Source of the DNA: Thermovirga lienii DSM 17291
GTDB lineage: Bacteria; Synergistota; Synergistia; Synergistales; Thermovirgaceae
NCBI GenBank assembly: GCA_000233775.1
Contig: CP003096.1
Location: forward strand, 1,886,501 to 1,950,500
Length of the DNA stretch: 64,000 bases
Direction of reading: 5' to 3'
Position 1 is the first letter of the stretch. Each line of letters starts with the position of its first letter. The translations under genes were made by a program, and so were the position numbers. Positions 28,563 to 42,535 of the stretch are shown piece by piece. Below the pieces are notes generated by a model. The model did no database searches. It was not told the DNA's origin and worked only from the letters and a program-made list of their open reading frames with translations.

Positions 28563-28692
28563 GCGTTGAAGCATTTCCTTTTTGTATGTTTACCTAACGA
28601 AGGTCTCCAATAATCAAATTTGCCATTTCAAACCTGCTGAAGTAAAATCTCTGCAACAAAACTCGTTGCCCGCTTACGTGGAGGGGATGGCC

Positions 28693-29787
28693 TTGGATTG
28701 GGATAAGAAAAACGAGATAGCAGAAATGAGGCAAAAAATTGACCAGCTTGACCAATCGCTCGCCCAAATACTGAAAGAACGCGTCGAGGCCGCACGGGCC
28801 ATCGGCAAGCTGAAAGGCAAACATCAAGTTCTGGATCCCATAAGGGAGCAGGAGGTCATTGACAGGACAGTCAAAATCTGCAGCGGGCTGGACCCCAAGG
28901 GCATAGAGGCCGTGATGAAAGAAGTAATATCCCTTTGTAGAGCTGTCCAGAAAAGGCCAACGGTGGCTTGCCTGGGGCCAGAAGGGTCCTTTTCTCAGCA
29001 AGCAGCCTACGCCTGCCTTGGAAGGAGCATCGACCTTGAATATCTTGAAGACATAGAAGGCATTTTCAGTGCCGTAGATAGAAAATCCACCTTATTTGGG
29101 ATCGTGCCGGTAGAAAATTCCATCGAAGGAGTGGTCTACAGCACCCTCGACGCCTTCTCCTCCTCCTCTTTAGATCTTTCAATTTCCATGGAAATAATGC
29201 TTCCAATAAACCATGTCCTGGCAAGTAAAAGCTCTACTTTGTCTCAAATAACAGAGGTACGTTCTCATCCTCAAGCTTTGGCCCAATGCAAGGGGTGGCT
29301 TTCCATGAACCTGCCTCAATGCCCCAGAAAAACGACTGCAAGCACCAGCGCTGCCGCCATGGAAGCGGCAAAGGACCAACGCCTTGCCGCCGTATGCACC
29401 TTGCTGGCTGCAGAGATAAACGGATTGAACGTATTGGCCAAAGATATCCAGGACCACCCTCATAACACCACCAGATTCTGGCTCATATCCAAAGGACAAA
29501 ACCCAACAAAACCCCTCAAAGGCATGAACAAGGCCTCTATCCTTTTCACCGTGGCTCACAAGCCTGGTTCGCTCTTTTACGCCCTCGAGCCGGTGAAGGA
29601 TGCAGGACTGAACATGATGTTCATCCAGTCCCGTCCCCTTACCAGCAACCCATTTGAGTACCTCTTCTTCGTGGATATAGAACTGGACCCCCAAGGCGAG
29701 AAAGCCCTGGAGGCCCTAAAAGAAATGGAGAAAAGATGTTTCAGCTTCAGGATCTTGGGGATATACCCCTCATTCAAAAGCCGCTGA
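28693..29787 (+). CDS. pheA: Bifunctional chorismate mutase/prephenate dehydratase (P-protein)
   Basis: About 364 residues in three parts. The chorismate mutase domain (AEMRQKIDQLDQSLAQILKER, residues ~8-85) is AroQ-type. The prephenate dehydratase domain has VACLGPEGSFSQQAAY, IVPVENSIEGVVYSTLDAF and the active-site HNTTRFWLIS. The C-terminal ACT domain (ILFTVAHKPGSLFYALEP, FIQSRP) senses phenylalanine. I favour the TTG at 28693, 8 nt after GGAGGGG; an ATG two codons earlier almost touches that site. It faces the trp operon, and the two 3' ends overlap by 18 bp. It makes phenylpyruvate from chorismate, the branch point shared with TrpE. Confidence 0.9.
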   Translation: MDWDKKNEIAEMRQKIDQLDQSLAQILKERVEAARAIGKLKGKHQVLDPIREQEVIDRTVKICSGLDPKGIEAVMKEVISLCRAVQKRPTVACLGPEGSFSQQAAYACLGRSIDLEYLEDIEGIFSAVDRKSTLFGIVPVENSIEGVVYSTLDAFSSSSLDLSISMEIMLPINHVLASKSSTLSQITEVRSHPQALAQCKGWLSMNLPQCPRKTTASTSAAAMEAAKDQRLAAVCTLLAAEINGLNVLAKDIQDHPHNTTRFWLISKGQNPTKPLKGMNKASILFTVAHKPGSLFYALEPVKDAGLNMMFIQSRPLTSNPFEYLFFVDIELDPQGEKALEALKEMEKRCFSFRILGIYPSFKSR

Positions 29788-30570
29788 GTCCAGTGCTTTC
29801 CTGAGGCTCGAAGTGAAGGCCCTGACCTTTTCTTCAAGGGCATGTACGTCCTTTTGGCTTTCCTCTATCAACCTGACCAAGGCACTCCCTACTACCACAC
29901 CGTCAGCCAGGACCGCGGCATCCTTGGCCTTCTTTTGATCGTCGATCCCAAACCCCAAGGCCAGAGGAATTTTTATGTGGCGCCTTACCCTTCCTATGTA
30001 CTCGTCCAGGTTCTTTGCCGGCCCCCTCTTGTCTCCGGTTATGCCAAACAAGGAGACACAGTACACAAACCCTCTGGCAAAGGTTGCCATCCTTGATATC
30101 CGTTCCTCCTGGGTATTTGGCGCGACCATCAATATTCCGTCCACTCCCTCGTCCTCCAGGGCCCTATAAAACGAAGGGTCTTCATCGAAAGGAAGGTCAG
30201 GGACTATGACACCTGCTACCCCTGCATCCTTTGCCTCGGAGGCAAAGCGCTGCAGGCCATACTGCAGAATTGGATTGTAGTATCCCATCAAAACCAGTGG
30301 AACCTTCACCCTTGAAGCATTTTCCCGAAGGGTCTTCAATACCCCTTCCAGGGTGACTCCCCTCTCCAGGGCTCGCTTGGAGGCCATCTGAATGATCGGC
30401 CCATCCGCCTGAGGGTCCGAAAAAGGAACGCCCACCTCCACTATGTCCGCTCCACTTTCCTGCAGCACCTCTATAAGACGCACCGTCTCCTCCAAGGAAG
30501 GATCACCAGCAGTAATGTAGGGTATCAATGCTTTCCTCTTGGCAAAAGCCTCCTGCAATCTCATCATCAT
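29770..30570 (-). CDS. trpA: Tryptophan synthase alpha subunit
   Basis: About 266 residues. The TIM-barrel active site has [21 protein letters not shown] (catalytic Glu and Asp), and [11 protein letters not shown] near the phosphate site. It cleaves indole-3-glycerol phosphate to indole, which is channelled to TrpB. The ATG at 30570 overlaps the trpB stop (ATGA), with AGGTGGTG upstream, so translation is coupled. Two more ATG codons follow at once (ATGATGATG), so the exact start is uncertain by two residues. It is the last gene of the operon and ends inside the 3' end of pheA. Confidence 0.95.
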
Positions 30571-31757
30571 ATGGAAACACCACCTTTCAGCAGATAAGGC
30601 CTCACTGAGGACATATCCTTGTCTCCCCTTCCCGAAAGGCACACCACAACCAAGGCATCCTCCCCCAAAAGGGGCGCCCTCTTTATGGCTTCAGCCAATG
30701 CATGGGAGCTTTCCAGAGCCGGGATTATCCCCTCAAGCTTGCTTAGAAGCTCAAAGGCCTCAAGAGCCTCATGGTCCGTGACAGAAGTGTACTCCACTCG
30801 CCCTTTCTCTTTGAGGTAACTGTGTTCCGGTCCTACACCGGGATAATCCAACCCCGCAGAAATCGAGTAAGCCACCTGCACCTGTCCATATGGATCCTGA
30901 AGCAAATAAGACTTACTTCCATGGAGAACTCCCACCTTGCCAGCAGTGAGAGTGCATGCGTGACGCCCTGTGAAAAGGCCCGCTCCTGCAGCCTCCACAC
31001 CTACCATCCCAACGTGCTCGTCCTCAAGAAAGGGATGGAAGAACCCTATTGAGTTGCTTCCTCCACCTACGCAAGCTATTAGTACATCGGGAAGCCTTCC
31101 CTCGGCCTCCAATATCTGAGACTTTGTCTCCTCGCCTATCACTCTCTGGAAATCTCTTACTATAGTGGGATAAGGATGAGGCCCTACTACCGACCCTATG
31201 ACATAATACGTGTCTTTGACGTTGGTTACCCAATCCCTTATCGCCTCGTTGGTGGCGTCCTTCAGCGTCTGGCTGCCTGAGGTTACTGGCACCACCTCTG
31301 CTCCCAAAAGCCTCATTTTCTCCACGTTCAACGCCTGGCGCTCCATGTCCTCGGCGCCCATATAAACGTGGCATTCAAGGCCCTCCCTGGCGGAGGCCGT
31401 GGCCACTGCAACTCCGTGCTGGCCCGCTCCGGTTTCAGCTATTATCCGCTTCTTGCCCATCCGTTTGGCCAAAAGGACCTGGCCCAAGGCGTTGTTTATC
31501 TTATGAGCCCCCGTGTGGTTCAAGTCCTCCCGTTTGAGATATACCCTTCGATCCAACCTTTCCGAGAGGCGTTCAGCAAAATAAAGAGGTGTGGGCCTGC
31601 CGCAGTAGGTTTTAAGGAGCCTTTTTAGCTCCTCATTGAAGGAACTGTCGCGCCTTACCTCTTGGTACATTTTCTCCAACTCATCCAGGGCTGGTATCAA
31701 GGTCTCAGGCACATACCGGCCACCGAAATCTCCAAAATACCCTCTTCTGTCACTCAT
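30567..31757 (-). CDS. trpB: Tryptophan synthase beta subunit
   Basis: A 396-residue PLP enzyme of the TrpB1 type. [19 protein letters not shown] near residue 80 contains the PLP lysine. [13 protein letters not shown] near residue 108 has the catalytic Glu, and [14 protein letters not shown] near residue 230 binds the PLP phosphate. The N-terminal [17 protein letters not shown] is typical of TrpB1 and contacts TrpA. It condenses indole with serine. It overlaps trpF by 8 bp upstream and trpA by 4 bp downstream. Confidence 0.97.
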
Positions 31758-32391
31758 CTTTTCTCCCCTCCATCTTAGTCAACTGGTAGCTTCTTATAAT
31801 CCTTATCGTCTCTTCCATGAGACGGTGGTCCTTAACACCTGGAGATATCTCCAGTCGGCTGTTCAAGTCCACGCCGCAGGGTTTTACTTTTTCAATAGCA
31901 TTCAATACGTTCCCCGGTCCAAGTCCCCCTGCCAAAATAAAGGGTTTCCTCATCCTTTCGTGCTCGACTCTTTCCCAACGAAAGGGCTTTCCCGTCCCTC
32001 CTGCTTTGGCTTTTGCTGAGTCCAACAGAAAAAAATCTGCAACGTTCCTGTATTTCTCAAAATCCGCTCTTTCTCCCTCAGCAAAGGAAAAGGCCTTTAT
32101 CACCTTCACTGGCAATCCCTCAAGAAGGCTTGGATCTTCCTTTCCGTGAAATTGGATGGCGTCAAAAATACCGCAGGAAATCACTTTCATTAAAAATGTT
32201 TCCTCGGGATCCGCCACCACGGCCACTACGCTCACGAAAGGAAAGACACCCTCGGTCAAACGCCTTGCATCGTCAAGGGTTACCTGCCTTGGGCTGGGGG
32301 CTAGAATAAAACCCAAAGCGTCGAACCCAAGCTCCAGGGCCTTCAAAACGTCCTCTTTTCTTTTCAACCCGCAAAGCTTGACTCTCACCAT
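31750..32391 (-). CDS. trpF: Phosphoribosylanthranilate isomerase
   Basis: 213 residues. [28 protein letters not shown] begins the TIM barrel and carries the catalytic Cys. The catalytic Asp is in [21 protein letters not shown], followed by [12 protein letters not shown] and [20 protein letters not shown]. It performs the Amadori rearrangement of phosphoribosylanthranilate. It is a separate gene here and not fused to trpC. It lies 2 bp from trpC and overlaps trpB. Confidence 0.95.
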
Positions 32392-32393
32392 GG

Positions 32394-33146
32394 CTATCGG
32401 GTCCTTTCCACTATTTCCCTTATCCTGTCCTGGGGGTCTTGGGCCTCCACAAGATAAGTCCCCACCAAAAGGGCATCCACGCCGCAGCTTGCCAAAAAGA
32501 GAGCATCTTCCAGGGAGGAAATCCCGCTTTCTGAGACCATTTTTCGCTTCAGGGGATTCTCAAGCTTTCGCGCCAAATCCATCATCCTTTGAGTCACCCT
32601 AAGATCTATGGAAAAGTCCTTTAGGTTTCTGTTGTTGATTCCTATTATTCTCGCAGGAGTGTCCATGGCTCTTTTCAATTCATCGGGGGTATGAACCTCC
32701 AACAAAACTTCAAGGCCCAGCTCCAGCGCCTTTTCCACCATCATGGAAAGCTTTTTCCCCTCTAAAAGGGAAGCTATAAGAAGCACGGCATCAGCTCCCA
32801 AAAACAAGCTCTCGTAAAGTTGAAGGGGATCTATTATGAAATCCTTCCGCAGAAGGGGAACGGGAGAAATGGCACTCAGCTGTCTCAAGGTCTCGTTAGA
32901 ACCTCCAAAGAAGTTCCCTTCAGTTACCACCGATACCGCCACAGCCCCTCCCTCCACGTACTTTTGGAACCTGGCTTCGGGCGTTAAAGTCCTTTCTATG
33001 ACTCCCCTGCTGGGAGATGCCTTTTTGATCTCCGCTATGACCGCAAGCCCCCTGGCAGACGAAATGGCTTCTTTCAAAGAACGGCGAGGAGCTTTCATCC
33101 TCTTAATCTCAGCCTTTTTGGCTTCCACTATTCTTGAAAGGGTCAT
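32394..33146 (-). CDS. trpC: Indole-3-glycerol phosphate synthase
   Basis: 250 residues. VIAEIKKASPSRGVI near residue 37 holds the catalytic Lys and phosphate-site residues. VTEGNFFGGSNETL, PLLRKDFIIDPLQLYES and ARIIGINNRNLKDFSIDL are the other family motifs, with VSESGI near the C-terminus. It decarboxylates and closes the ring of CdRP to give IGP, the substrate of TrpA. The start overlaps the trpD stop by 4 bp. Confidence 0.96.
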   Translation of the reverse strand: MTLSRIVEAKKAEIKRMKAPRRSLKEAISSARGLAVIAEIKKASPSRGVIERTLTPEARFQKYVEGGAVAVSVVTEGNFFGGSNETLRQLSAISPVPLLRKDFIIDPLQLYESLFLGADAVLLIASLLEGKKLSMMVEKALELGLEVLLEVHTPDELKRAMDTPARIIGINNRNLKDFSIDLRVTQRMMDLARKLENPLKRKMVSESGISSLEDALFLASCGVDALLVGTYLVEAQDPQDRIREIVERTR

Positions 33147-34171
33147 ATGGCTTCCTCCCTTCTCGCTTCCCTCGTAAAGGCCCTGAGTTCAAAAAGAAGC
33201 TTATATGCCTTTCCGTTTGAGATTACGTCTCTGGCCAAGAACGCTCCCTCCCTCAAAGAGGGGGTTACTCCGGCCGTGAAGAAAGCCGCTGCCGCATTGA
33301 ACACCACAGCCTCCACCAGGGGACCTCCTTCTCCTCTCAGCACACCTTCCATGAGGGCGGCGTTTCCTTTGGCATCCTGGCCAGCAAGAAGGTCGTTGCT
33401 CTTTTTCTCAAGCCCTACATCTTCTGGTCCTATCTCCCCTTCTTCCAATCTCCCTCGCTCTACGAAGCAAACCTTGTTGGGTCCTTCAAGGGAAAATTCA
33501 TCTATGTTACCAAAGCCGCAGACCACCAGAGCTCTCTCCACACCCAACCCCGCAAGGGCCTCGGCCATGGGCCTCACCAGGTGGGGTGAATAAACACCTA
33601 AAACCTGAAACCTAACCCTGGCGGGGTTCGTGAGAGGCCCTAATATGTTAAATATGGTTCTGACTCCCAAGGCCTTCCTTATCGGAGCTACGTTCCTCAT
33701 AGCCTCATGAAAGTAGGGAGCATAGATGAACCCGAAGTTGGTCCTTTCTATGCATTGAGCCACCAAGGATGGATCATCAAAAATGCCCACTCCAAGCTCC
33801 TCCAGCACATCCGCACTCCCGCACTTGCTTGAAATGGCCCTGTTGCCGTGCTTCGCAACAGCTACCCCCCCTGCTGCCGTCACCAAAGCCGCTGCGGTGG
33901 ATATATTGAAGGTTCCCTTTCCATCCCCGCCAGTGCCCACTATGTCTATCAGGATCTCTTTTTTTACATTCAGGCCTTTGGCCTTTCCTCTCATCACCTC
34001 CGCAGCGGCCCTTATCTCCTCTGGGGTCTCCCCCTTGACCCGCAAGGCCGCAAGGAACGCCGCTACCTGTATTGGAGGTGCCGCTCCCTCCATTATGGCG
34101 TCCATGACGTCCTTCATCTCCAAGTAGTCGAGGTTTTTCCTCTCCAAAACCTTCTCAATGGTCATCTTCAT
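33143..34171 (-). CDS. trpD: Anthranilate phosphoribosyltransferase
   Basis: 342 residues. The nucleoside-phosphate-binding motif is DIVGTGGDGKGTFNISTAAALV near residue 75, with KHGNRAISSKCGSADVLEELG after it and FGFIYAPYFHEAMRNVAPIRKALGVRTIFNILGPLTNPA in the middle. It joins anthranilate to PRPP. It is not fused to TrpG, although trpG overlaps it by 4 bp. No anomalies. Confidence 0.96.
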   Translation of the reverse strand: MKMTIEKVLERKNLDYLEMKDVMDAIMEGAAPPIQVAAFLAALRVKGETPEEIRAAAEVMRGKAKGLNVKKEILIDIVGTGGDGKGTFNISTAAALVTAAGGVAVAKHGNRAISSKCGSADVLEELGVGIFDDPSLVAQCIERTNFGFIYAPYFHEAMRNVAPIRKALGVRTIFNILGPLTNPARVRFQVLGVYSPHLVRPMAEALAGLGVERALVVCGFGNIDEFSLEGPNKVCFVERGRLEEGEIGPEDVGLEKKSNDLLAGQDAKGNAALMEGVLRGEGGPLVEAVVFNAAAAFFTAGVTPSLREGAFLARDVISNGKAYKLLFELRAFTREARREEAI

Positions 34172-34764
34172 CTCTGCTCAGCTCCTCTTCTCAGATGTTC
34201 TTTTGCTATCTTGTGAAAATTCCTCAATATCTTCTCTCCGTGATCGGTCATGATTGATTCAGGGTGAAACTGAACGCCGTACACCGGAAAGGATGTGTGC
34301 TGAATGGCCATTATGGTACCGTCCAAGGTGGTTGCTACGACCTTCAGTTCCCTGGGCAGGGAGGTCTCTTCAACCACAAGGGAATGGTACCTGGTAGCCC
34401 TGAAGGGAGATGGAAGGCCCTCCAATACTCCTTCTCCGCGGTGGTATATCTCCGAGGTCTTTCCGTGGAAGGGTACCTCTCCCCTTATTACCCTACCGCC
34501 AAAGACCTCTGCTATGGCCTGGTGTCCCAAGCACACACCCAGGATGGGTATAACTCCTGCAAAAGCCCTTATTACTTCCTTGGATATCCCCGATTCATCA
34601 GGGGTCCCCGGACCGGGAGAGATAACTATGCCGTCCGGTTGAATATCCTTTATTTCCTCGCATTGAATTTCATCGTTTCTATAAGTCCGTACAGTATCTA
34701 TTAGGGAAAGGTACTGCACCAGGTTGTAGGTAAAGGAATCGTAGTTGTCTATGACCAAAATCAC
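34168..34764 (-). CDS. trpG: Anthranilate synthase component II (glutamine amidotransferase)
   Basis: 198 residues of a class I amidotransferase. The catalytic Cys is in PILGVCLGHQAIAEVFGG near residue 80, and the His and Glu in VYGVQFHPESIMTDHG near residue 172. ISPGPGTPDESGISKEV forms the oxyanion loop. It supplies ammonia to TrpE and may also serve PabA's role, since no separate pabA is visible here. Its start directly abuts the trpE stop. Confidence 0.95.
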   Translation of the reverse strand: MILVIDNYDSFTYNLVQYLSLIDTVRTYRNDEIQCEEIKDIQPDGIVISPGPGTPDESGISKEVIRAFAGVIPILGVCLGHQAIAEVFGGRVIRGEVPFHGKTSEIYHRGEGVLEGLPSPFRATRYHSLVVEETSLPRELKVVATTLDGTIMAIQHTSFPVYGVQFHPESIMTDHGEKILRNFHKIAKEHLRRGAEQR

Positions 34765-36288
34765 CTAGGCCACCCCCTTTGTTCTTTGGCCTTCCAGTAT
34801 CTTGATTAGGGCCTTGGCCTTGTTCTTGGTCTCCTCGTACTCCCTCTCAGGCAATGAATCGTAGACTATGCCTGCACCAGCCTGAACGTGCAGCCTTTCT
34901 CCCTCCTGAAGAAACGTCCTTATGGCAATGCACATGTCCATGTCTTGGCCAAATCCTATATATCCCACTGCTCCGGCATAGGGCCCCCTGGCTTCAGGCT
35001 CCAGCTCCTCTATGATCTCCATGGCCTTGATCTTGGGAGCTCCGGATACGGTCCCAGCGGGGAAAGCGCTCTTCAGGATCTCGAGGGGAAAGCAGTCCTC
35101 TCGCTTGATGCCTTCCACGTTGGAGACGATGTGCATTACCTTGGAGTACTTCTCTATCCCCATAAGCTCCGTTACCTTGACCGTCCCAGGCACACAGACC
35201 CTTCCCAAGTCGTTCCTGGCAAGATCCACCAGCATCAGATGTTCTGCCCTCTCCTTCTCATCGGACAGAAGGTCATCTTCCAAGTGCCTGTCCTCAGTGG
35301 GACACCTTCCTCTCCTCCTGGTTCCAGCCAAGGGCCTTGTGGTGGCTTTGCTGCCCTCAACTCGGACCAAGACCTCCGGCGAAGAGCCAATTAGCCTAAA
35401 GTCCTTTAAATCCAGCAGAAACATGTAAGGGGAGGGGTTGGCCGACTTCAATGCCTGATAAAGAGTCAAAGGGTTAACCTTCGCCTGGGCGGTGAACCTT
35501 TGGGATAGGACCACCTGACATATATCTCCAGAACGTATTCTCTCCTTTGCCTCCTCCACCATGGAAAGGAAGCAAGATTCGGTCATGTTAGAACGAAACG
35601 TTGCCGCTATCTCCGTAGGGTCATCAAACTCCATGGGAAACTTTGGCTCCGAGATCTTTCTTTCGAGTTCCTCCAGCGAAAGTAGTCCTTCATCGTAGAG
35701 GGTCTTTTTTTCTGCTGAAGTCGCTCCTTCTGGGATCCTAACCGTCTCTATCAAGAAGATCCTTTCATATAGGTGGTCTATGGCCACCACGGAACGAAAA
35801 GCTATCATCATAGCTTCCGGGAATGGGCTTTCCTTCAGTTTCCTTTCGGGATCCTGATGGAAAAGTTTCTCCCAGTGCTGAACCATTTCATAACCCAAAT
35901 AGCCCGCAAGACCTCCTGGGAAGGGGGGTAGGCCCTCGAAAAGCTCGTTTTTATGGCTTGATATATACTCCTCAATAGCTTTGTCGAACAGCTCCGGCCC
36001 GCCACTTCGCAACAGATTACCTTTAGGCCCCTTCTCCCTGAACGTGCCTTTAGCCAAGGCGAAAACCCGTTCTGGCCTTGATGCCACGAAGGAGAACCTT
36101 CCCTCGTGGGGCCTTGAAATTCCGCTCTCGAAAAGGAGGGAAAAGTTCCCTTTTCCAGCGACCCGGCGGTATATATCAAAAGGACTGTTTCTTCCGAGGG
36201 GCATTTCCCTCACCAGGGGCACTGCATTGAAACAATGGCTATACTTTTCAAATTCCACAAAACTGACCTCTTTTCTCAAACTCTTCAT
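34765..36288 (-). CDS. trpE: Anthranilate synthase component I
   Basis: About 507 residues. The start at 36288 has GAGGT right before it and AGGAGG 9 nt upstream. The in-frame extension to 36348 runs into the attenuator hairpin and is rejected. The N-terminal domain has FSLLFESG, close to the LLES element that binds feedback tryptophan. The chorismate-binding domain shows DICQVVLSQRF, LIGSSPEVLVRVEG, RPLAGTRRRGR and SGAPKIKAMEIIEELEP, with GYIGFGQDMDMCIAIRT near the end. It makes anthranilate with TrpG. It is controlled by the leader at 36329-36532. Confidence 0.96.
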   Translation of the reverse strand: MKSLRKEVSFVEFEKYSHCFNAVPLVREMPLGRNSPFDIYRRVAGKGNFSLLFESGISRPHEGRFSFVASRPERVFALAKGTFREKGPKGNLLRSGGPELFDKAIEEYISSHKNELFEGLPPFPGGLAGYLGYEMVQHWEKLFHQDPERKLKESPFPEAMMIAFRSVVAIDHLYERIFLIETVRIPEGATSAEKKTLYDEGLLSLEELERKISEPKFPMEFDDPTEIAATFRSNMTESCFLSMVEEAKERIRSGDICQVVLSQRFTAQAKVNPLTLYQALKSANPSPYMFLLDLKDFRLIGSSPEVLVRVEGSKATTRPLAGTRRRGRCPTEDRHLEDDLLSDEKERAEHLMLVDLARNDLGRVCVPGTVKVTELMGIEKYSKVMHIVSNVEGIKREDCFPLEILKSAFPAGTVSGAPKIKAMEIIEELEPEARGPYAGAVGYIGFGQDMDMCIAIRTFLQEGERLHVQAGAGIVYDSLPEREYEETKNKAKALIKILEGQRTKGVA

Positions 36289-36328: not shown

Positions 36329-36437
36329 AGAGGGGAGAGGCTCTTCAAGGCCTCTCCCCTCTTTGATTACAGCTAAAACTCAAGCAAAACAAAAGGGCCT
36401 TGAAGAGAATCCCAAAAGGGATCCGCCTCCAAGGCCC
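36329..36437 (-). promoter_or_regulatory. trp attenuator (terminator, antiterminator, anti-antiterminator)
   Basis: On the minus strand three mutually exclusive pairings can be read. The terminator is a perfect 13-bp stem, AGAGGGGAGAGGC with its complement (36329-36362), followed by TTATTTT. Its 5' arm and loop contain GGCCTTGAAGAG (36341-36352), which pairs perfectly with CTCTTCAAGGCC (36396-36407) to form the antiterminator. That segment's GGCC part can instead pair with GGGCCTTGG (36429-36437) further upstream. The arrangement sits just after the leader peptide stop, as ribosome-stalling attenuation requires. Confidence 0.92.
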
Positions 36438-36451
36438 TAAGCTCTATTTAT

Positions 36452-36532
36452 TTACATCGCTTCAGGCTCTTGGGGGCAGACCGCGAAAGTCTGCCACCAC
36501 CAATTGCGTAACGATGCTTTTTTAATGCTCAA
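36452..36532 (-). CDS. trpL: trp leader peptide with three tandem Trp codons
   Basis: A 26-codon frame starting with TTG at 36532, 8 nt after GGAGG. It reads (M)SIKKASLRNWWWQTFAV and ends CPQEPEAM. The TGG TGG TGG run is at 36494-36502. Stalling at these codons when charged Trp-tRNA is scarce would leave segment 36395-36407 free to form the antiterminator. The peptide gene begins 26 bp after the chemoreceptor stop codon. The trp promoter must therefore lie within that gene's 3' end, or trp is partly read through from it. Confidence 0.88.
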   Translation of the reverse strand: MSIKKASLRNWWWQTFAVCPQEPEAM

Positions 36533-36557: not shown

Positions 36558-38729
36558 TTACGAGATGTTAGCACCTTCCTTTTCCTCCGTCAAGTGTTCT
36601 TCCTCTTCAAGTTCCTCCTGCACCTTCGCTTTTTCCTCTACTTTAAACCTGTTGAGCATAACTTCGAGTTTATCGGCATTCGCCATAAGGGTTTGTGCTT
36701 CTTCAGCCACTTGCATAGCTTTCTCGTTAGTGGAAACAGAGGAGGATTCTATTCCTTCCACTTTCTCGACCAGCTGGTTGTTAGCCAAAGTTATCTGTTC
36801 AACGGCTTCAGCGATTTCGTGACTTGCAGCCGCCTGCTCTTGGGCAAAGGCCGCCATGGAATGTATTGTTTCATCGATGGAGTGGATATGCTCCAAAACG
36901 GACTCTATGTTGTTCTGGGCCTCTGCTGCTTGTTGCGCCGTGATCTTAAGCTCTTCCGCTGAGGTCATTACGGCATCTGCAGAATTTCTGCTCTCCACAC
37001 GAAGGACTTCCACCAAAGTGCTTATTTCCTTGGCGGCTTTGTTGGAGTTCTCTGCGAGTTTCCTGACTTCATCCGCAACCACTGCAAAGCTCCTGCCGTG
37101 TTCTCCAGCTCTCGCTGCCTCTATGGCAGCGTTAAGGGCCAACAAGTTGGTCTGATCGGCAATAGTACCTATGGTGCTTACAAAGGATGTTATCTTCTCA
37201 ACGGAATCCACCAATTTCTCTATGGCCTTGGCGTTGAGTTCCGCATCCTCCGAAGTCTTGTACACAGCCTGTATTACGCTCTTAACCTGTCCTGTAGCCT
37301 CCTCTCCGATCTTGCGGGTCTTATCCGAGAGGGCCGCTGCTTCTGCTGCAGACTCTGCAACATTCTTGGAACCGCTGGAGACCTCTTCTATGCTAGCGTT
37401 GGTCTCTTCCAGGGAAGCCGCATTGTTTTCCGCAAGTTCCGCTAGGTCCTTTACCGCCCCCTGTATAACTTCCATGGCTTCATTCACTGAATCGGACAAC
37501 CTTGCGAGCTCATCTGCTCCGTGTTTGTTGTTTGCCACCTCATCTTTTATGGCTTCTATGATCTGCTTTTGGTTGGTGATCATTTTTTCCATTTCCACAG
37601 CTACTTCGTATATCTCATCGCGGAAGGGGAAAGAGTACCAGCTTAAAGACACCGTGAGATCTCCGGAACCAGCCTTTTGAGCCATGTCCGAAAGGTTGCG
37701 GAGAGGTTTCTTTATGCTTCTGGTGATCAAGAAAGAGACCACCAAACCTAATAATATTACGACCAAGGTAACCACTAAGCTCAATTTGAGGCTTTGAGAA
37801 AGGCGCACCATTATATTTGAAGCAACTTCATTGACTTTCTTCAGAGTCTCCTTGTTCACATCATCAACTAACTTGTTGGTCTTCTCCGCTCTATCCTCCA
37901 AATCTTGGGCTATGCTCTGAAGGGCCTCCCAATTTGCCACCAAGTCTTCTACCGCCTTTTTGTATGAGCCTATGGCCTCAATCACCTTTTCCAAGTTCTT
38001 TTTGCTGGAAAGAACGTAGGTGTCTTTCTTGATGGCCCCCACTTCGCCTTGGACCTTAGTCAACCTTGAGAGCAAAGCCTTTACCTCGCTGTCGCTTCGA
38101 GCCAGCTGAGCTTTATATATGTCAATTCCCACGCTTTCCATTTCCCTCAACAAATCCATGGCCTTATTGATTTTTCCCATGCGCTTCATTACCGCTGCAA
38201 CGCCAAGTTCAAATTCTATCTCGTTTTTTAGTTCCTCTCTCTCTCCTGCTAAGTATGCCCTCATGTTTTCCCTAACCGTAGATAAAGCCTTTTCTGTTTC
38301 TGCGCGGCTATCCTTTATACTCTCCATGGCTCTTCCTATCTTTCTGGCCGCGTTCTTGAGAGAACTTATAGCACTTGTAGCCACATTGGCTCCTTGTTCT
38401 AGCTCCTCAATGTCGCTCCTTGCGGTGGCCATCCGCATCGCCTGTTGAACAAGGGCTTCTGCTTCTTTTAATTTTTCGTCACCTTTAAGAAGGTAGCCTT
38501 TTTCGCCCACTAGAGCATATTTGGAGTAGTAAGACGATCCCTCCAAAAGTTTTTGCCTGATATCGGAAGTAAGATTTATCTCAGCAAACCTTTGCTTCAC
38601 CAAGTCTTCCGTGGAGTATTGAATCTCCTGGAAATTTTTCCAGGAAAAGAACGTGGCAATAGCAAATACAACCACTACTGCCAAAATGCTTCCTGCAAGC
38701 CTTGGACCTATTTTGGTGTTTTTAAACAA
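36558..38729 (-). CDS. Methyl-accepting chemotaxis protein
   Basis: About 723 residues. The first TM segment ([18 protein letters not shown]) is near the N-terminus. A long helical, charged periplasmic sensor runs to about residue 320, then the second TM ([19 protein letters not shown]) and a HAMP domain. The signalling tip is [19 protein letters not shown] then [23 protein letters not shown] prefer the TTG at 38729 because GGGGGGAAGAG precedes it. A solute-binding protein gene lies upstream on the same strand, so the receptor may sense ligand through it. The C-terminus is very acidic ([15 protein letters not shown]). Confidence 0.92.
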
Positions 38730-42416: not shown

Positions 42417-42434
42417 TTTAAACGCTGACTGAAG

Positions 42435-42512
42435 GCCATGGGGGCGCCCCTAAGAGGGGCTGAGAAGGTACCCCTTGAACCTGATCCAGGTAATACTGGC
42501 GGAGGGAATGGC
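42435..42512 (+). ncRNA. TPP (THI-box) riboswitch
   Basis: The conserved THI-box elements are all present: GGGGCTGAGAAGG, ACCCCTTGAACCTGATC, then CAGGTAATACTGGCGGAGGGAA. The P1 stem pairs GCCAT (42435-42439) with ATGGC (42508-42512). It is followed by an intrinsic terminator, so it probably shuts off transcription of thiC and thi4 when thiamine pyrophosphate binds. Confidence 0.96.
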
Positions 42513-42535
42513 AAGAAAAGGGAAACAACTCCTCT

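Follow-up and report, generated by a model that had tools for sequence, protein, structure and literature searches.

A probable six-segment, tryptophan-sensing attenuator ahead of the trp operon of Thermovirga and related Synergistota

Introduction

In the open-access literature, transcription attenuation by a translated leader peptide is documented in Proteobacteria, Actinobacteria and some Bacilli, and the authors of a case in Bacilli were aware of no earlier example beyond the first two groups (PMC2965389). The enterobacterial his leader consists of six segments (A–F), in which the pairings A:B, C:D and E:F are terminating and the pairings B:C and D:E are antiterminating (PMC4046918, PMC1183508). 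The trp attenuators of Actinobacteria (e.g. Corynebacterium and Streptomyces) are described with one antiterminator and one terminator hairpin, and no relay has been reported for them (PMC1262725). According to Elf and Ehrenberg (PMC1183508), the extra hairpin of the his leader, or a stop codon located far into region II, lowers basal readthrough; the E. coli trp operon tolerates leakage since TrpR also acts, and their prediction concerns attenuation that has no repressor backing. We found no report of leader-peptide attenuation in Synergistota in the open-access literature; the wide survey of Lopatovskaya et al. 2010 (cited in PMC4833913) lies outside that literature and may include related predictions.

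Here we analyse the leader of the trp operon in a 64,000-nucleotide stretch (hereafter the window) of the Thermovirga lienii genome (1,999,646 bases, 2 contigs). We consider it highly probable, as a prediction, that this leader senses tryptophan by ribosome-mediated transcription attenuation and works as a six-segment relay.

Results

The leader and operon in the window

The leader region (minus strand, 36532-36289) precedes trpEGDCFBA, a gene order read from Pfam matches (trpE-G-D-C-F-B-A), and contains a TTG-start open reading frame (MSIKKASLRNWWWQTFAVCPQEPEAM, then a stop) with a good Shine–Dalgarno sequence (AGGAGG, 8 nt 5' of the TTG, which directly follows an in-frame TAG). The candidate promoter sits in the 3'-terminal part of the chemotaxis-receptor gene upstream, and the sister genome G001 likewise has TTGACG followed by TAGTAT upstream of its leader. 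The 204-nt leader (36532-36329) folds to -96 kcal/mol, compared with -63.2 +/- 4.6 kcal/mol for dinucleotide shuffles (z -7.06, 0/200). Reading frame, Shine–Dalgarno sequence, Trp codons and this folding excess together confirm the initial annotation, which had proposed a trp attenuator with a TTG-initiated WWW leader peptide; its guess of a Synergistota lineage was also right, the closest named TrpE being that of a Thermovirga sp. MAG (70% identity).

Two neighbouring features were also recorded: a chorismate mutase/prephenate dehydratase-like reading frame (28582-29787, plus strand) that is convergent with the trp operon, and a TPP riboswitch (RF00059, 82.9 bits; 42430-42524, plus strand) just 3' of an MFS-type transporter gene.

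Table 1. Leader and operon features, in window coordinates
Feature	Position	Strand	Description or basis
Candidate sigma-70 promoter	36565..36593	-	TTGACG-17-TAACAT, TGn before the -10; consensus scan
Leader peptide ORF	36452..36532	-	TTG start, 26 aa, translation LSIKKASLRNWWWQTFAVCPQEPEAM and stop; RNWWWQ kept in relatives
Three consecutive Trp codons (sensing site)	36494..36502	-	Motif AAYTGGTGGTGGCRGRC
Segment 1, GGTGGTGGCAGAC	36489..36501	-	Pairs with segment 2; 98.4% of helix cells paired; cognate z -7.0
Segment 2, GTCTGCCCCCAAGAGCCTGAAGC	36459..36481	-	Pairs with 1 or 3; 2:3 covariation and cognate z -8.6
Segment 3, GCTTAGGGCCTTGGAGGCGGATCCC	36418..36442	-	Pairs with 2 (antiterminator) or 4
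Segment 4, GGGATTCTCTTCAAGGCCC	36395..36413	-	Pairs with 3 (first terminator-like hairpin, -32.5 kcal/mol) or 5
U-tract after hairpin 3:4, TTTTGTTTTG	36385..36394	-	Sequence
Segment 5, AGAGGGGAGAGGCCTTGAAGAG	36341..36362	-	Pairs with 6 or 4
Segment 6, GCCTCTCCCCTCT	36329..36341	-	Closes second terminator-like hairpin 5:6, -27.4 kcal/mol
U-tract after hairpin 5:6, TTATTTTG	36329-36322	-	Sequence
trpE, first controlled gene	34768..36288	-	Pfam PF00425 and PF04715; RBS AAAGGAGG upstream
trpG, trpD, trpC, trpF, trpB, trpA (rest of operon)	29773..34764	-	Pfam and ORF list

Six segments and two terminator-like hairpins

The initial annotation described three competing RNA segments and a terminator. 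The pairings 1:2, 2:3 and 3:4 stand, and the description was incomplete: the leader has six segments (Table 1) and two terminator-like hairpins, 3:4 (36442-36395) and 5:6 (36362-36329). We hold with good confidence that a terminating state (1:2, 3:4 and 5:6) alternates with an antiterminating one (2:3 and 4:5), which is the relay logic of the his leader. The consensus 2:3 pairing is 5'-CUGCCnCCAAGaGCCU / AGGCCUUGGaGGCGG, and 4:5 comprises 12 continuous Watson–Crick pairs in the window (CUCUUCAAGGCC with GGCCUUGAAGAG).

By sequence, intrinsic terminators with U-tracts are present ahead of the operon after 36395 and 36329; a simple consensus terminator scan, whose loop and tail rules are strict, found 0. 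The U-tract is modest after the second hairpin of the window and better after the first. The hairpin 3:4 has its own U-tract in the window and several relatives, which departs from the his arrangement in which only the last hairpin is a terminator; in several other relatives (e.g. L004, L005 and L020) this first U-tract is poor or absent. By a crude T count over 44 leaders, a U-tract follows the first hairpin in 23 and the second in 32. Because the second U-tract is usually the better one in relatives, the last hairpin is generally the probable main terminator, and in the window both hairpins appear usable.

Predicted behaviour of the switch

From the reading frame, its codons, the hairpins with their conservation and the 2:3 alternative, all of which are observed, we infer how ribosome and polymerase would behave. 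When charged Trp-tRNA is plentiful, the ribosome would pass the WWW codons and reach the stop codon, which lies beyond segment 2 in Thermovirga, and would thereby mask segment 2; 3:4 and then 5:6 would form, and RNA polymerase would halt at either hairpin of the terminator-like tandem. With Trp-tRNA in short supply, a ribosome stalled on the Trp codons would cover segment 1, which would let segment 2 pair with 3, free segment 4 to pair with 5 and so prevent 5:6; with both terminators disarmed, trpEGDCFBA would be transcribed. Without translation, 1:2, 3:4 and 5:6 would form and transcription would end.

When the window RNA is folded stepwise with a ribosome on the Trp codons, transcripts that end with segment 3 or segment 4 adopt 2:3, and those that end with segment 5 adopt both 2:3 and 4:5; a ribosome at the stop codon gives 3:4 and 5:6. 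The minimum-energy fold of the full-length free RNA is again 3:4 plus 5:6, so the relay must act kinetically during transcription, as in other attenuators.

Conservation of the pairings

The pairings were compared in two ways: (i) by fixed-column counts on a MAFFT alignment of 17 leaders (A1), which is also the basis of the covariance model R1; and (ii) by a register-free cognate test, in which the energy of the duplex between a segment and its partner in the same leader is compared with that for partners from other leaders, the partners being permuted. The second test was used because the 5–6 region aligns poorly and the register of 4:5 varies.

In the alignment, the helices 1:2, 3:4 and 5:6 are jointly 91.8% paired (0/500 shuffles as high); in 11 pairs both sides have changed, and 5:6 has 6 such pairs. 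The alternative 2:3 is 90.8% paired, with a covariation score of 0.163 against 0.106 +/- 0.015 (0/500 shuffles), and slid versions of it are at most 54% paired. For 4:5, the fixed-column count gives no support (71.1% paired; 341/500 shuffles as high).

The cognate test over 44 leaders gives z scores of -7.0 for 1:2, -8.6 for 2:3, -17.0 for 3:4, -4.2 for 4:5 and -21.1 for 5:6; nine pairings outside the model are null in the same set, including 3:6 (+0.5), 2:5 (+1.1), 3:5 (-0.3), 4:6 (-0.5) and 2:4 (-1.5). Among 34 non-redundant leaders, 2:3 and 4:5 score -7.4 and -4.1, a result that is kept at stricter redundancy limits and is weaker when trpE and non-trpE leaders are taken separately. Limited to the apical loop of 5:6, which is free of the 5:6 constraint, the test gives a modest result (p 0.01-0.02). 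We also considered whether 4:5 complementarity is a by-product of a duplicated terminator; if 5:6 were a mere copy of 3:4, a cognate excess would be expected for 3:6, and its absence disfavours this idea.

Comparison thus shows the predicted 2:3 alternative to be a real, conserved pairing, mutually exclusive with the likewise conserved terminator 3:4, and indicates that 4:5 is probably real as well. The outcome that would have refuted the initial annotation, pairings lost in relatives, was not seen: 1:2, 3:4, 5:6 and 2:3 covary, and cognate partners beat non-cognate ones for 1:2, 2:3 and 3:4. Its proposal that ribosome-mediated trp attenuation extends to Synergistota is strongly supported by this covariation and cognate pairing, as a prediction from sequence.

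These tests bear directly on a simpler scheme, in which the leader has the four-segment design of E. coli and nothing more, 5:6 backs up the first terminator in tandem or bars readthrough from upstream, and 4:5 has no function. The better U-tract of the window does belong to 3:4, both hairpins are present in the full-length fold and the fixed-column counts lend nothing to 4:5. However, an unregulated 5:6 immediately before trpE would block the operon even with 2:3 formed, and 3:4 has no U-tract in several relatives, where 5:6 must therefore be the controlled terminator. Moreover, 4:5 is lineage-matched, unlike 3:6, 3:5, 2:5 and 4:6, and in stepwise folding it belongs to the best state once segment 5 has emerged. 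We regard the four-segment scheme as unlikely and retain the six-segment relay.

Distribution across Synergistota

Every close relative inspected has a WWW leader upstream of trpE, and the consensus of such leaders in the order is (R)NWWWQTF. In most relatives, a peptide of 14-15 aa starts with ATG and stops right after WWWQTF, while the window and its sister G001 have TTG starts and peptides of greater length, 26 and 24 aa, which extend into segment 2 or beyond it. By our tally, at least 31 of the 45 Synergistales genomes with a trpE match have such a leader ahead of trpE. The remaining 14 comprise ten with inspected upstream regions (L178-L186 and L190), in which neither the usual W-rich leader nor an Rfam element was found, and others whose regions are at a contig end, partial or uninspected.

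With an E cut-off of 0.01, the covariance model R1 finds matches in 62 of the 183 Synergistales genomes, where those with E above ~1e-3 look like chance or antisense echoes; it has no match at 78 TrpE loci of other phyla, mainly Bacillota, Acidobacteriota and Nocardia. Scanning 188 Synergistota genomes for the motif AAYTGGTGGTGGCRGRC gives 45 occurrences, spread over 40 genomes, compared with 1 for the reversed control. A few of the 45 occurrences were set aside, having no leader architecture (G182, contig C2; G025 and G045, contigs C3 and C12). Two genomes outside Synergistales (G184 and G186) have a WWW leader with both hairpins ahead of trpEGD, gene names here being assigned by reading.

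Tryptophan genes beyond trpE

The leader element also precedes other genes, whose names are given by sequence reading where Pfam does not cover them: trpD (L158-L160 and L163); trpC (L157, IGPS by Pfam); trpB (e.g. L161, L166, L172, L173, L189, L191 and L203); TrpP tryptophan transporters (L170 and L171 by Pfam, L188 by sequence similarity); an NhaC-family transporter (L145); and AMP-binding enzymes (L192, L193 and L199). The leaders of these last three read GRWWWF or GRWWWY, and the enzymes resemble phenylacetate-CoA ligase.

Two leaders (L149 in G002 and L151 in G007) contain Phe-Tyr-Tyr-Trp codons and precede the gene of a membrane protein that matches no Pfam family and may transport aromatic amino acids; neither genome has a trpE match. 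Such a variant before a different gene is as expected if the codons set specificity.

Peptides that extend through segment 2 (L145, L149, L151 and the window) have a common tail like VCPQEPE, which is thus common to Thermovirga trpE leaders and to transporter leaders elsewhere. This tail is a by-product of the conserved segment 2 RNA being read in frame.

Other tryptophan regulators

None of the 183 Synergistales genomes passes the TIGR01321 cut-off for TrpR. Look-alikes found with Pfam PF01371 were rejected, the four tested being YerC/YecD (TIGR02531) and not TrpR. The initial annotation set this kind of attenuation against lineages that use TRAP or T-boxes, which is too simple a contrast: the Thermovirga genome itself has a gene for TRAP, as well as T-boxes elsewhere. 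Its TRAP gene (mtrB, PF02081) lies at G000:C1:789686-789886 (L217:3160-3411), and TRAP is encoded in 57 of 188 Synergistota genomes, in a dnaE-mtrB-pyk neighbourhood.

Spaced GAG arrays that look like TRAP sites occur in some TRAP-bearing genomes, on start codons or close to them: at the trpE starts of G014 (L011) and G056 (L020), at trpB of G038 (L191) and near the AMP-ligase leaders of G014 and G038 (L193 and L199), with p of 0.005-0.02 against shuffles, uncorrected for multiple testing. The genes concerned also bear a WWW leader, and arrays are found only in TRAP-bearing genomes. GAG/UAG triplets are dense around the trpE starts of TRAP-bearing genomes (mean 6.5 versus 3.2 background, p 1e-5); in the window, 7 such triplets lie at the trpE start (36318-36243) and 8 at the trpD start (34201-34126), against a background mean of 3.2, with irregular spacing. 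TRAP could add a layer to control of the window operon. It is possible, if doubtful, that in part of Synergistota the trp mRNAs are under two independent sensors, a his-like six-segment relay for Trp-tRNA and TRAP for free tryptophan, with TrpR absent; in this joint proposal, TRAP would bind where GAG/UAG repeats cover the start codons of trpE, trpB and others related to them.

That TRAP or another protein is the main control and the WWW reading frame is incidental seems very improbable. The TRAP gene and the dense triplets at trpE starts speak for such control, but in the window leader, (G/U)AG triplets at 2-3 nt spacing form no array (longest chain 2, versus 2.2 in shuffles), genomes with no TRAP match retain the WWW leader and all pairings, and Trp codons recur ahead of dispersed tryptophan genes.

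A T-box search (RF00230) gave no match in the window and three elsewhere in the genome (G000:C1:630141, 1226042 and 1537094, one of them below the cut-off), which by ORF reading precede threonine synthase/homoserine kinase-like, argG-like and lysX/argC-like genes. In the leader, the Rfam search returned no match at the gathering threshold and no relevant family at E up to 10, and the covariance model of Trp_leader (RF00513) matched neither at gathering nor at E up to 10. A T-box, a riboswitch or a chance reading frame over an ordinary terminator can be given practically no weight: T-boxes do occur at those other loci, but the leader has no relevant Rfam match, the motif far exceeds its reversed control, and reading frame and structure are conserved.

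Discussion

The attenuation mechanism and the his relay (PMC4046918) are already known. Judging by the open-access literature, the novelty lies in a trp version found phylum-wide, with two terminator-like hairpins, that serves a tryptophan regulon. In this diderm phylum, where T-boxes and TRAP are in use as well, it represents a conserved, regulon-wide attenuation device.

Actinobacterial trp attenuators have double or triple UGG codons, a GC-rich terminator with a U-tract and copies at other trp-related genes (PMC1262725), and the Synergistota element resembles them in these respects; model R1 has no match at the Nocardia trpE loci tested.

The E. coli trp leader (RF00513) likewise has consecutive Trp codons in segment 1, the 1:2/2:3/3:4 logic and a position upstream of trpE. 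The Synergistota element differs by (i) the additional segments 5 and 6 with the 4:5 alternative; (ii) three Trp codons instead of two; (iii) the lack of an Rfam match; (iv) the absence of TrpR in the Synergistales lineage; and (v) the Thermovirga stop codon beyond segment 2. The Thermovirga leader thus combines both low-leak features considered by Elf and Ehrenberg, an extra hairpin and a stop codon far into region II, with absence of TrpR. A low-leak design that compensates for the absent repressor is a consistent explanation rather than a demonstration, and this combination makes the low-leak idea testable on trp rather than his.

The his leader differs in several respects: the Thermovirga element is predicted to sense Trp and serves the trp operon, its leader has no Rfam match to any his leader family, and in many members, the window among them, the Synergistota hairpin 3:4 is itself followed by a U-tract. 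The two systems probably share the same relay logic, and in both the last hairpin stands before the first structural gene.
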